DNA of 64,000 nt, from contig NZ_CAJXNN010000013.1 of NCBI RefSeq assembly GCF_913057115.1, positions 1-64,000 of the forward strand, given 5' to 3'. Below the pieces are notes generated by a model. It was not told where the DNA came from and searched no databases. It saw only the letters and a list, made by a program, of their open reading frames with translations. A program made the position numbers and the translations under genes. The DNA is from an uncultured Roseovarius sp. Lineage in GTDB: Bacteria > Pseudomonadota > Alphaproteobacteria > Rhodobacterales > Rhodobacteraceae. Below are positions 9,222 to 57,370 of this stretch, in pieces (the stretch's first letter is position 1; each line of letters opens with the position of its first letter).

Positions 9222-10517
9222 CTACATCTGCCCCGGCAAGTAGGTGACGATCCCGGGGAAAACCGAGATCAGGATCAGGGCAAGAACCATCAGGCAAAAG
9301 AAGGGCAGGGCCGCCATGGCCACGAACAGGATGTCGCGGCCGGTCAATGATTGCAGCACGAACAGGTTGAAGCCCACCGGCGGTGTGATCTGCGACATCT
9401 CGACAACGATCACGAGGAAGATGCCGAACCACATCGGATCAATCCCGGCCTGCGTGACCATGGGCATGATGACCGAGGCGGTCAGCACGACGACCGAGAT
9501 GCCGTCCAGAAAACACCCCATGATGACGAAAAATACCGTGAGGGCGGCAAGCAGCGTGAAGGTTGAAAGGCCAAGTGACCCGATCCATTCGGCGAGTATG
9601 CGCGGGATGCCTGTAAAGCCCATCGCCACTGTCAGGAACGAGGCCCCGGCGAGGATGAAGGCGATCATGCAGGAGGTGACGGTGGCCCCCATCAGTCCGT
9701 CGAGAAAGCTTTGCTTGGTGAGTGATCCGGAACTCCAGGACAGGATCAGCGCAAGGACGACGCCCACGGCGGCGGCATCGGTGGGTGAGGCGAGCCCTGC
9801 GTAGATCGAGCCGATGACACCAAGGATCAATAGCACCACGGGGATCAGGCGACGTGAGCGGCGCAGCCTTTCGGCGAAGGTCACGTTCAGGGTTTCGTCG
9901 GGCAGGCTTTTGCGGTTCAGAAAGGCCCATAGGACGACAAATCCAACAAACAGCCCGACAAGCAGAATACCGGGCAGGACGCCAGCCACGAAAAGCCGTG
10001 CAATGGATTGTTCGGTGGCCACGCCATAGACGATCAGAATGATCGACGGTGGGATCAGCAGGCCCAGTGTGGCGGAGCCCGCCAAGGTGCCGATCACCAT
10101 TTTTTCCGGGTAGCCGCGTTGCGAAAGCTCCGGGATGGAGAGCTTGCCGATGGTGGCGGCGGTGGCCGCTGACGATCCGGAGACGGCGGCGAATATCCCG
10201 CAGGCGAAGATATTGACATGCAGCAGTTGCCCGGGCAGGCGCGTCAGCCACGGTGAGAGGCCTGCGAACATGTCATCCGACAGCCGCGAACGGAACAGGA
10301 TTTCCCCCATCCAGATAAAGAGTGGCAGGGCGGCCAGCGCCCAAGAGTTGCCGTGACCCCAAAGCGTGGTGGCCATCACCAGCCCGATGGGCGCACCGCT
10401 GTAGAGTGCCATGGCGGCAATACCGACGCCCAGAAGGGCAAAGGCCACCCAAAGCCCCGCCCCGAGGAAAGAGAACAGCAGGACGAGGAGGATGACGGAG
10501 AGAAGTGCGATGGACAT
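9222..10517 (-). CDS. dctM: TRAP transporter large permease (DctM)
   Basis: Inner-membrane protein of 431 residues with the hydrophobic, glycine-rich pattern of about 12 membrane helices typical of TRAP DctM subunits. Family stretches include AAVSGSSAATAATIGKLSIPEL and LIPPSIILIVYGVATEQS in the first half, and the conserved TPPVGFNLFVLQ near the C-terminus. It drives sodium- or proton-coupled uptake of an organic acid delivered by the periplasmic binding protein. It follows the small permease gene by nine bases and is cotranscribed with it. Confidence 0.95.
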   Translation of the reverse strand: MSIALLSVILLVLLFSFLGAGLWVAFALLGVGIAAMALYSGAPIGLVMATTLWGHGNSWALAALPLFIWMGEILFRSRLSDDMFAGLSPWLTRLPGQLLHVNIFACGIFAAVSGSSAATAATIGKLSIPELSQRGYPEKMVIGTLAGSATLGLLIPPSIILIVYGVATEQSIARLFVAGVLPGILLVGLFVGFVVLWAFLNRKSLPDETLNVTFAERLRRSRRLIPVVLLILGVIGSIYAGLASPTDAAAVGVVLALILSWSSGSLTKQSFLDGLMGATVTSCMIAFILAGASFLTVAMGFTGIPRILAEWIGSLGLSTFTLLAALTVFFVIMGCFLDGISVVVLTASVIMPMVTQAGIDPMWFGIFLVIVVEMSQITPPVGFNLFVLQSLTGRDILFVAMAALPFFCLMVLALILISVFPGIVTYLPGQM

Positions 10518-31014: not shown

Positions 31015-31130
31015 TAAAGCGTTCCGCCTTTGACCTGAGGGATCAGCGGAAGGCGGAACGCGTGCAACGATTGAGCGTTGCGCTGCATTTCGCGAAAATC
31101 TGCGATTCAGGTTTTTCGCGAAACGCTTTA
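31015..31130 (+). repeat. 116-bp cloverleaf repeat, copy 1 (diverged)
   Basis: Ends TAAAGC...GCTTTA. Three hairpins: a perfect 12-bp stem GCGTTCCGCCTT/AAGGCGGAACGC, then GCAACG-6-CGTTGC, then an 11-bp TTTCGCGAAAA/TTTTCGCGAAA stem around TCTGCGATTCAGG. It aligns without gaps to the copies at 41239 (reverse) and 53006. Many stem bases differ but stay paired. It is located between the gene at 30344-30931 and rppH. Confidence 0.85.
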
Positions 31131-41238: not shown

Positions 41239-41354
41239 TAAAGCCTTCGCCCCAAACCCTGGGTCACAGCTTTGCGGCGAAGGCCGCGCAACATATGACT
41301 GTTGCACGCGCCCTGCCTTTATCTGATGTGTCAGGTTAAAGGCAGGACGCTTTA
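41239..41354 (-). repeat. 116-bp cloverleaf repeat, copy 2 (reverse orientation)
   Basis: Reads on the minus strand. Ends TAAAGC/GCTTTA; hairpins GCGTCCTGCCTT/AAGGCAGGGCGC, GCAACA-6-TGTTGC and CTTCGCC...GGCGAAG around CTGTGACCCAGG. It is more than 90 percent identical to copy 3 at 53006. Located just after the 3' end of the histone-deacetylase-family gene. Confidence 0.9.
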
Positions 41355-46033: not shown

Positions 46034-47659
46034 ATGCGTATCATCTATCCCCTTGTTTTCATGGCATTGCCGGTGGCGGCATGGGCCGAGGATATCCCGC
46101 TGACAAGCGAGGTGAGCGAGGTCACGCTTTATCCGCAAGGGGCCACGGTGGTACGCGAGGTGGAGTTCAGCGTCCCCGCCGGGCAGCATGACTTGATCCT
46201 GACGGATTTGCCGAAAAATACGCCCTTGGCCGCGGTGCGCGTTTCCGTGGATGGGGCGGTGATGGGGAGCGTCACGGCACGCGATGACTTCGTTCCGCCG
46301 CGTGACCCTGACATGAGCGCCGCACGCGAGGCTGCGCGTGCCGAGGTGGAGCGGCTGGAAGCCGCGCTGCGCGATGGCGAGGCTGATGTGCGGGCGATCA
46401 CGCTCGAGGTGCAGGCAGCCAAGGCGCGGGTGGCCTTCTTGGAACGGCTGGGCCAAGGCGAGGCCGTTGCTGGCATGAATACCAACGACCTGCGCGATCT
46501 GGTCGGGATGATCGGCGAGGAGAGCCTTTCGGCCATGCGCGCCGCCCATGAGGCCGAGCGCCGGGCCGGGGAGGCGGACCGCGCCCTGACCGACCTGCGC
46601 AAGGAGTTGGAGGCGGCGCGCGCCGCCCTGCGCGCGCTTGTCCCCGAGAAGGAGGAACGGGCGATGCTGGCCGTGGCGGTCACCGCACAGGAGGCGACGC
46701 AAGGCACGGTGCGGGTGAGTTACACCATCCGCGAGGCTGGATGGACGCCGGTCTACGATCTGCACCTTGCACGGGATTCGGGCGATCTGCGGATTGAGCG
46801 CGGCGCTTTCGTGCGACAATCCACGGGCGAAAACTGGCGTGATGTGGCGATGACCCTGTCGACGGTGCGCCCGTCCGAGCAGGTTTCGCCCAGCGAGGTG
46901 TTCCCGTGGCTGCGGCGTGTCTTCGACCCCGAGGCGATCCGGCCCAAGACGCTGCAACGCAGTCAGGCCGATGGTATGGCCGAGATGGCCGCACCACGGG
47001 CCGAGCCGATGGCGGTGGAGACCGCGCAGGCGAATTTCGATGGGCTGGCCGTGACCTATGATTACCCCGGCGATGTTTCGATTGCGACGGGGGCGGACCG
47101 TGTTCGGCTGGCGCTGGGCACGCTTGAAACGCAGGCGCAGGTCGAGGCGCGGGCGGTACCCTTGTTTGACCCCAGTGCCTTCCTGATGGCGCGGATTGAG
47201 AACGACACGGGCGAATTGATCCTGCCCACCGGTGAGGCGATGTTCTATCTGGATGGGCGGTTCATCGGCAAGCAGTTCCTTGAGATGATCCCGGCGGGCG
47301 GAGAAGCGGACCTGTCGTTCGGTCCCATCGACGGGCTGCGCCTGACCCGGACGGTTCTGGGCCGAGAGGAAGGGCAGCGGGGCGTCATCACCCGATCAAG
47401 CGATTTTACCGAAGCGGTGAAGATCGAGGTGGAGAATCTGACCGGGCAGGCGTGGCCTGTGCGGGTCGTCGACCGGGTGCCGCATTCCGAGCAGGAAGAG
47501 CTGGAGGTGGAATGGAACGCCTCGCCGCGGGCCAGCGAGGTTGATGTCGATGGCAAGCGCGGGGTTCTGGCGTGGTCCTTTGACATCACCGCAGGTGAGA
47601 CCCGCGAGATCGGGTTGGAGTATGACCTGCAATGGCCCGAGGGCAAGGTTCTGCGTTAA
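46034..47659 (+). CDS. DUF4140/DUF4139 protein (mucoidy-inhibitor-like)
   Basis: Exported protein of 541 residues. Signal peptide MRIIYPLVFMALPVAAWAED, N-terminal DUF4140 (SEVTLYPQGATVVREVEF), a central coiled coil (about 95-205), then DUF4139 (VRVSYTIREAGWTPVYDLHL...). It ends in DITAGETREIGLEYDLQWPEGK, the normal C-terminus. The family is found in many proteobacteria and in fungi (MuiA), and its molecular function is unknown. AGGAGG stands before ATG 46034. A terminator follows. Confidence 0.92.
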   Translation: MRIIYPLVFMALPVAAWAEDIPLTSEVSEVTLYPQGATVVREVEFSVPAGQHDLILTDLPKNTPLAAVRVSVDGAVMGSVTARDDFVPPRDPDMSAAREAARAEVERLEAALRDGEADVRAITLEVQAAKARVAFLERLGQGEAVAGMNTNDLRDLVGMIGEESLSAMRAAHEAERRAGEADRALTDLRKELEAARAALRALVPEKEERAMLAVAVTAQEATQGTVRVSYTIREAGWTPVYDLHLARDSGDLRIERGAFVRQSTGENWRDVAMTLSTVRPSEQVSPSEVFPWLRRVFDPEAIRPKTLQRSQADGMAEMAAPRAEPMAVETAQANFDGLAVTYDYPGDVSIATGADRVRLALGTLETQAQVEARAVPLFDPSAFLMARIENDTGELILPTGEAMFYLDGRFIGKQFLEMIPAGGEADLSFGPIDGLRLTRTVLGREEGQRGVITRSSDFTEAVKIEVENLTGQAWPVRVVDRVPHSEQEELEVEWNASPRASEVDVDGKRGVLAWSFDITAGETREIGLEYDLQWPEGKVLR

Positions 47660-53005: not shown

Positions 53006-53121
53006 TAAAGCGTCCTGCCTTTAACCTGACACATCAGACAAAGGCAGGGCGCGTGCAACAGTCATATGTTGGGCGGCCTTCGCCCCAAAGCTGTGACTCA
53101 GGTTTTGGGTCGAAGGCTTTA
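53006..53121 (+). repeat. 116-bp cloverleaf repeat, copy 3
   Basis: Exactly 116 bases, aligned without gaps to copies 1 and 2. Its last base (53121) is next to the imuB stop codon (53122-53124). The inner stems are GCGTCCTGCCTT/AAGGCAGGGCGC, GCAACA/TGTTGG and CTTCG-CCCAAA/TTTGGG-CGAAG. Confidence 0.9.
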
Positions 53122-56500: not shown

Positions 56501-57370
56501 ATGAGTGATGATGCATATACCCCGCCGAAAGTCTGGCAATGGGAGGAGCCCTCGGGAGGGCAGTTTGCCTCGATAAACCGGCCGGTTTCCGGGGCGACCC
56601 ATGAGGCAGACTTGCCGGTGGGTGAGCATCCGTTTCAGCTTTATTCCATGGGCACGCCCAACGGGGTGAAAGTGACCGTGATGTTCGAAGAGCTTTTGGC
56701 GGCCGGGTATGATGCGGAATATGATGCGTGGCTGATCCGGATCACCAAGGGCGATCAGTTCGGCAGCGGGTTCGTGGACGTGAACCCCAACTCCAAGATC
56801 CCGGCCATGGTGGACCGCAGCGGGGATGCTCCGGTACGGGTGTTTGAATCCGGGTCGATCCTGCTGCATCTGGCGGAAAAATTCGGGGCGTTCCTGCCTG
56901 CAAGTGGCGCGGCGCGGACCGAAGTGATGAATTGGCTGTTCTGGCAGATGGGCAGCGCGCCTTACCTTGGCGGCGGCTTTGGCCATTTCTATCACTACGC
57001 GCCGGAAAAGTGGCAGTACCCGATTGATCGCTTCACCATGGAGGTGAAGCGGCAGATGGATGTGCTGGACAAGCAATTGGCCGAGCATGAGTTTGTTGCC
57101 GGGGATGACTATTCGATTGCCGATATGGCGATCTGGCCGTGGTATGGGAACCTTGTGCTGGGCCGGCAATATGGTGATGCGGCGACCTTCCTTGAGGCCG
57201 ACAGTTATACCCACCTCAAGGCATGGGCCGAGCGGTTGGACGCGCGTGAGCCGGTGAAGCGGGGCCGGATGGTCAACCGCACCATGGGCGAGCCGCATGA
57301 GCAACTGCACGAGCGCCACGCGGCGAGCGATTTCGAGACCAAGACGCAGGACAAGATCGGCGAAAACTAA
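56501..57370 (+). CDS. Glutathione S-transferase, YghU-like disulfide oxidoreductase
   Basis: 289 residues of the YghU/nu-class GST group. Thioredoxin-like N-terminal domain after an extended lead (YTPPKVWQWEEPSGGQFASINRP...GEHPFQLYSMGTPNGVKV), NSKIPAMVDRSG as the cis-Pro loop, and ESGSILLHLAEKF as the glutathione contact. A helical C-terminal domain follows (MADYSIADMAIWPWYGN-like block). It uses two glutathione molecules to reduce disulfides or peroxides. AGGAGC stands before ATG 56501. Convergent with livF. Confidence 0.93.
   Translation: MSDDAYTPPKVWQWEEPSGGQFASINRPVSGATHEADLPVGEHPFQLYSMGTPNGVKVTVMFEELLAAGYDAEYDAWLIRITKGDQFGSGFVDVNPNSKIPAMVDRSGDAPVRVFESGSILLHLAEKFGAFLPASGAARTEVMNWLFWQMGSAPYLGGGFGHFYHYAPEKWQYPIDRFTMEVKRQMDVLDKQLAEHEFVAGDDYSIADMAIWPWYGNLVLGRQYGDAATFLEADSYTHLKAWAERLDAREPVKRGRMVNRTMGEPHEQLHERHAASDFETKTQDKIGEN

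Follow-up and report, generated by a model that had tools for sequence, protein, structure and literature searches.

A 116-bp dispersed repeat of Roseovarius, very probably a MITE derived from an IS630-family insertion sequence, with co-varying hairpin arms that the insertion sequence lacks

The closest known kind of element to the repeat analysed here is RUP of the pneumococcus. As far as the cited parts of its description go, RUP is a dispersed repeat of 107 bp that occupies TA-containing targets, also inserts in IS elements, has terminal repeats like those of an IS630 element, and is a MITE attributed to IS630-Spn1 (PMC2229807). It differs in that its host is unrelated, that it is found in a single species and that it is described as intergenic, and we liken it by description, not by sequence. 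Co-varying hairpin arms are a feature of the Roseovarius element, and the passages cited mention none for RUP (PMC2229807). ERIC, the 127-bp enterobacterial repeat, is similar in habit, i.e. it is described as having stable stem-loops, TA ends and a TA duplication, and as lying sometimes inside genes (PMC2759123, PMC10969869). These passages name no parent transposon for ERIC, whereas the ends of the Roseovarius element match those of IS630, and kinship is claimed in kind only, by description. MITEPye1 of Paracoccus yeei is a MITE of the same order, with long stem-loops and terminal inverted repeats in common with an IS, but its description attributes it to IS1182 and gives 1–3 chromosomal copies (PMC11578231). 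In Brucella, Bru-RS1 and Bru-RS2 are likewise palindromic alphaproteobacterial repeats linked to an IS, namely IS711, which duplicates the TA of YTAR and reportedly favours these repeats; they are, however, described as hot spots for IS711 insertion in the portion cited, and the likeness is again one of description, not of sequence (PMC2266754). REPINs are described as REP doublets (PMC3116915), and the Roseovarius element resembles the REP/RAYT systems in its pair of inverted hairpin units, whose foot and loop are conserved. It differs from them in the TA duplication, in the probable DDE-type IS630 parent and in that no link to RAYT was found. The Roseovarius element would thus be a further IS630-descended MITE of the RUP kind.

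The window, i.e. the whole stretch of 64,000 nucleotides of an uncultured Roseovarius sp. (the host) that was analysed, contains three copies (Table 1). A preliminary description, made from the letters of the window, had reported that all three have 116 bases and align without gaps. Both points were borne out by an alignment of 116 columns that is free of gaps inside the element, and by a search of the window with a covariance model (R1) built from 15 host copies. At E ≤ 0.1 the three copies were the only matches (six rows, i.e. three places on both strands, all with E ≤ 1.8e-14). The element consists of two inverted units, and the reverse strand also matches R1; it has the terminal inverted repeats TAAAGCG...CGCTTTA, and as a whole it is an imperfect palindrome. 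The outer part of unit A resembles the right ends of IS630-type IS, of the class TAAAGC-N11-AACCTGA-NNCA.

Table 1. Copies of the repeat, parts of copy 1, and empty sites in the window; G046 is a related Roseovarius genome.
Feature	Position	Strand	Target	Remarks
Putative MITE, copy 1	31015..31130	+	CTAA	116 bp including both TA duplicates
Putative MITE, copy 2	41239..41354	-	CTAG	116 bp; subfamily with GCGTCCTGCC stem
Putative MITE, copy 3	53006..53121	+	CTAT	116 bp
Copy 1, unit A (hairpin 1)	31015..31061	+		outer 28–30 bp like the right end of an IS630-type IS
Copy 1, central hairpin 2	31062..31083	+		GTGCAACG...CGTTGCGC
Copy 1, unit B (hairpin 3)	31085..31130	-		read on the other strand, like the left end of an IS630-type IS
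Empty site in the host	46053..46054	none		G046 carries the element there, in frame, at codon 7; the gene starts at 46034
Empty TA within a stop codon in the host	57368..57369	none		G046 carries a second, 106-bp element there

The three hairpins that had been described for each copy are confirmed by folding. On the strand on which the repeat was described, the folding z-scores of copies 1–3 are -6.75, -8.57 and -7.81, with none of 200 shuffled sequences folding as well, and the energies are -60.2, -69.0 and -62.9 kcal/mol versus -56.9, -57.4 and -49.7 kcal/mol on the other strand. The loop CTGYGAYTCAGG, which had been described as kept, is present in copies 1 and 3, but copy 2 has CTGTGACCCAGG. 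Both sides do switch at all seven stem pairs for which double changes had been reported (element positions 9/43, 11/41, 55/62, 76/107, 77/106, 80/103 and 81/102). In the 15-copy alignment, 89.7% of the cells are paired, versus 83.4% in a shuffle control and 34–45% with slid partners; 11 of the 42 pairs have two-sided changes (8.2 in shuffles, of which 12 in 500 attain 11). Covariation scores 0.232, versus 0.127 in shuffles, none of the 500 attaining the observed value. With 24 further pair types, however, the alignment does not exceed the shuffles (26.2). The double changes in the host mostly separate two subfamilies, so that few events are counted many times. In a comparison of 21 copies, those from other genera have the same plan with quite different stem letters. 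For 27 chosen copies, Watson-Crick pairing between the arms of the same copy is 89.2% for hairpin 1 and 88.1% for hairpin 3, versus 71.7% and 68.0% when arms of different copies are paired, both being scored at the best register. Stem changes that break pairs, which the earlier test for refutation had named, do occur in further copies, but the overall pairing exceeds that of the cross-pairing control. The compensatory stem changes are real and reach across genera.

In the host genome (3.44 Mb in 76 contigs), R1 found at least 33 distinct places at E ≤ 0.01, i.e. 26 strong ones with at least 62 bits and seven weaker ones; this is a lower bound, as 150 of 1660 candidates were scored. The host included, matches were found in 31 of 60 Roseovarius genomes (E ≤ 1e-4, 61 candidates scored per genome) and in 6 of 198 genomes in a family survey with one genome per genus (E ≤ 1e-8, 18 candidates scored per genome). 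An exact pattern search of genome contigs yielded 48 stretches, carried by Roseovarius, Celeribacter persicus, a Loktanella MAG, a Rhodophyticola MAG and two further Rhodobacteraceae. The element belongs to Roseovarius and some other Rhodobacterales. A plasmid search gave no match with copy 3 as the query, and four records with a G046 copy as the query, one of them covering 40% of it. No element match was found in phages or, with the exact pattern, in viral contigs. A literature search by titles and abstract openings, with most subscription journals outside its scope, found no paper about this repeat.

For an analysis of targets, 81 places were compiled, 26 in the host and 55 further ones, with nine place-repeating rows and the weakest partial or nested matches left out. 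The loci L027 and L043 are true element copies and were kept. All 81 places differ in the element plus its 10-bp flanks. The copies are 116 bp long in 66 cases, 115 bp in eight, 90 bp in five, and 113 and 117 bp in one each. TA is present at both ends in 64 of the 81 places. The rebuilt target is YTAR in 56 of these 64 and CTAG in 25, although only 2.1% of the window's TA sites are CTAG (for CTAG, binomial p about 2e-25). Identical copies at different places form groups of four, three, two and two. One group of two lies in the host, and the group of four comprises three copies of G046 and one of the Loktanella MAG. Such identical dispersed copies may be counted as a sign of recent movement. 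The identity of the Loktanella copy (L177, 587-702) with three Roseovarius copies suggests a recent intergeneric transfer or a contamination of the MAG. G046 has many near-identical copies, among which 17 have a mean difference of 3.2 bases.

Ten places were compared with relatives, mainly G007 and G046, in 16 comparisons. The check for target-site duplications that the preliminary description had proposed came out in favour of a duplicated TA. At two of the ten places (#41 and #50) the duplication is exact, i.e. the G046 copies lie at CTTAGCG and GCTAGG sites, and the G007 counterpart has exactly one TA at the empty junction. At three places (#1 and #42 in two relatives each, and #29) the empty site is as long as expected but differs by one to three letters at the junction, two (#4 and #14) have a near match to an empty site, and #3, #24 and #63 gave no clear reading. 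Copy 1 is missing at the orthologous site in both G007 and G046, and taking out 114 bp leaves equal lengths. At the place of copy 3 the element is absent from both genomes, the intergenic DNA there being too diverged for the target to be read. The repeat has the features of a MITE, i.e. it is short, has many copies and no coding capacity for a transposase, and it is bounded by terminal inverted repeats and a target duplication that is supported by empty sites.

Three genomes, with two contigs each, were searched with a foot-plus-loop pattern, i.e. TAAAGCG, 10 free bases, AACCTGA, two free bases and CA. The matches were pairs at the spacing of the element and some single ends. In G050, one unpaired end precedes an IS630/DDE_3 domain match by about 0.5 kb. 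The protein there was identified as a transposase by its matches to NCBIfam NF033545 (IS630 family transposase, E 7.1e-40) and Pfam DDE_3 (1.2e-28). Ends of the same form occur at annotated relatives that are carried by plasmids of Roseivivax, Sulfitobacter, Paracoccus and Roseovarius, and a relative on a Microvirga plasmid has a weaker version of them. We scanned 37 transposase places, i.e. 30 loci from a transposase search, six plasmid loci and one more G046 contig. With up to three substitutions, both ends are present 1.05–1.16 kb apart at 13 places, unpaired ends only at 17 and none at seven; with up to two substitutions the values are 7, 13 and 17. Many of the 24 places that lack both ends at three substitutions are fragments or diverged subgroups. 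A control of 1.64 Mb of G007 contained no spaced end pair, and 60 single hits (nine at the stricter cut-off). The target of the elements with both ends is YTAR in 12 of 13 cases. In 11 of 13 elements, and in seven of seven at the stricter cut-off, unit B is the better match for the upstream end and unit A for the downstream end, the exceptions among the 13 being one tie and one wrong order; some of these margins are 1–2 of 30 bases, and some of the IS are near copies of each other. In most of these IS630 elements, the repeat thus has its ends in common with the IS, left with left and right with right.

We therefore regard it as very probable that the 116-bp repeat is a MITE, i.e. a miniature transposon that is not autonomous, and that it descends from an IS630-family insertion sequence. 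Of the possibilities named in the preliminary description (structured RNA, REP/MITE-like element, protein-binding junction), the MITE stands, the RNA has little support and the REP/RAYT version falls. Unit A would carry the right end of the IS and unit B, on the other strand, its left end, and after loss of the transposase gene the two would be joined by hairpin 2, a short filler that is palindromic. Movement would depend on an IS630-type DDE transposase that acts in trans and probably recognizes each end by the foot TAAAGC and the inner motif AACCTGARNCA. This enzyme would cut the outer ends between TA and AAGCG and insert the 114-bp unit into the TA of a YTAR target, whereby the TA would be duplicated.

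Most element-bearing genomes are without the transposase. In the 60 Roseovarius genomes, IS630 transposases of several subgroups (E ≤ 1e-15) were found in 8 of 31 carriers and in 10 of 29 non-carriers (Fisher p 0.58). The host genome has no transposase match at this threshold, only a decayed IS630 relative. DDE_3 was found in 4 of the 10 genomes of an initial check and was absent from G046, which at E ≤ 1e-15 contains transposase pieces only; two elements lie in or just before them. One of these copies (L345, 1887-2002) precedes GGAGG and the start of a piece of an IS630 transposase gene, and the other (L346, 3664-3779) lies inside an IS630 remnant; insertions in IS are also reported for RUP. 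The picture in G046 fits a MITE that has outlived its source, with an IS630-type transposase as the putative enzyme of the recent bursts.

Other explanations have to be weighed against this origin. A MITE moved by an IS5/IS427-type (IS711-like) transposase would also duplicate TA in YTAR, and IS711 in Brucella offers a parallel, with its YTAR target, TA duplication and preference for Bru-RS in the portion cited (PMC2266754). PF13340 (OrfA-type) genes are present in 5 of 10 genomes tested, but absent from G000, G031, G054, G008 and G007, and the convincing ends, found at 5 of 13 loci, read GG(G/C)T..., unlike those of the element, which match IS630. An IS5/IS427-type parent was rejected for this mismatch and is largely refuted by the IS630 end match, so that we find it hardly credible. 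At all five loci where a PF13340 gene has such ends (L274, L276, L279, L281 and L283), Y precedes and R follows the TA. A REPIN, i.e. a REP doublet moved by a RAYT (a Y1 tyrosine transposase) that binds the hairpins as single-stranded DNA, would account for the abundance and dispersal of the copies and for their inverted hairpin units, two in each copy, with conserved foot and loop. However, Y1_Tnp is absent from the host genome, exceeds the Pfam cut-off in four of the 31 carriers but in seven of the 29 non-carriers, and is not linked to element-rich genomes; the TA duplication, the palindromic YTAR target and the match to IS630 ends also speak against it. To our knowledge, a TA duplication with a palindromic YTAR target is not expected of RAYT. 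A RAYT/REPIN origin was rejected as largely refuted and is extremely unlikely.

A family of structured regulatory or small RNAs, copied around for a useful RNA function, would explain the very stable folds, the better folding of the described strand in three of three copies, and the pairing that is kept though the stem letters differ between genera. However, an Rfam search of the window found one tRNA only, in agreement with the earlier remark that the element was not recognised as a named family; a loose match to copy 3 (E 3.5) scored 14.2 bits versus a gathering score of 74. The spread is patchy, i.e. 6 of 198 family genomes in the survey described above, and the target and ends are those of a mobile element. 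A wobble test of the 42 pairs in 60 distinct copies counted 67 G-U and 67 A-C cells, and this overall equality does not favour a plus-strand RNA. By hairpin, the G-U/A-C counts are 24/15, 29/26 and 14/26 for hairpins 1, 2 and 3, and in 27 cross-genus copies they are 23/7 for hairpin 1 and 10/17 for hairpin 3. Reading the units in their own orientation swaps G-U and A-C for hairpin 3, and hairpins 1 and 3 then both lean to G-U (together 50 versus 29 and, for the cross-genus copies, 40 versus 17). Part of this lean comes from one pair next to the foot that has a fixed base (11 of 23 in hairpin 1 and 4 of 17 in hairpin 3). There may still be a weak strand effect. All in all, an RNA family is very unlikely, and we do not count the element as a new class of RNA.

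What surprises is that hairpins absent from the parent IS are kept up in the repeat. For 16 ends of eight IS, the best inner pairing is 4–7 of 13, and shuffled sequence gives 5.6–6.9; for the MITE units it is 12 of 13. As the IS ends have no inner arm and the MITE units are paired, we ascribe the pairing to the MITE itself, where it persists through changes of the letters. The arms that would turn the ends into hairpins may have been kept complementary by selection, e.g. for transcript termination or stabilization or for the handling of single-stranded DNA, or by hairpin-templated repair. The earlier claim of selection on structure remains plausible, given that pairing is kept across genera, but hairpin-templated correction of DNA would give the same pattern, and both explanations fit. 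A tentative reading, which we consider somewhat less probable than its opposite, is that the arms are a selected trait of the MITE. Copies with folded ends, acting as RNA barriers or stabilizers after stops or in single-stranded DNA, would persist and spread better; their stems would change on either side of a pair, without change to foot and loop, and the element would be tuned for harmless landing. If so, it would land at stop codons and bring its own TAA on both sides, and its net 114 bp would even be readable in frame.

The gene context was derived with a simple codon-score finder. Of the 81 places, 76 could be classified (35 convergent, 33 tandem and eight divergent), three are inside an ORF and two at edges; for comparison, 263 of 1405 gene pairs in G007 are convergent. 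This finder is a crude tool. The terminal TAA of the element is the stop codon of a neighbour in 34 of the 76 places (on one side in 30, on both sides in four), a count in which an ORF cut by the insertion can end on the element by chance, versus 230 stop codons among 1200 non-coding-or-stop YTAR sites of G007 (binomial p 3e-7). An annotated plasmid of Aliiroseovarius offers a parallel, with putA ending on the element. As YTAR equals its own reverse complement and TAA opens the consensus end, a stop codon split by the insertion is restored, even for two convergent genes that have one YTAR in common. Insertion into a TAA or TAG stop would therefore leave a working stop, and such a stop-restoring filter would act together with the target preference to bring copies to the ends of genes and into the gaps of convergent pairs. 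The G046 copy at codon 7 is open in frame and adds 38 predicted codons.

Several related and shortened elements were observed. The second element of G046 (L120, about 10175-10292) has 106 bp including both TA, TAGAGCGTCTCCAG...CTGGAAACGCTTTA; its outer ends, TAGAGCG...CGCTTTA, are similar to those of the 116-bp element, and it sits at the TA of a stop codon. In the host, a relative of it adjoins a 116-bp copy (C3, L027). Its 49-bp core (L273, 5001-5049), with the inverted repeat GCATCGCCAAT...ATTGGTGATGC, has matches on plasmids in 33 records, 26 of them typed as conjugative; among the 30 matches listed, 26 are to the core only. In one plasmid examined, the core lies near a ParB-like gene. In the recurrent 90-bp variants (L059, L062, L165, L167 and L182) the tip of hairpin 3 is missing from between two TTTCGCGAAA-like repeats, and a 51-bp copy (L308, 2017-2067) is a single unit with both feet. 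The 90-bp and 51-bp variants have the appearance of deletions that took place between direct repeats of short length.

A repeat that about half of the searched genomes of a common marine genus carry thus receives a very probable parent, a target and a direction of movement, so that such repeats need not pass for regulatory RNAs. Paired stem changes in a transposon provide a clean case, and a caution, for covariation-based RNA discovery. The landing at stop codons suggests how a compact genome tolerates dozens of insertions.
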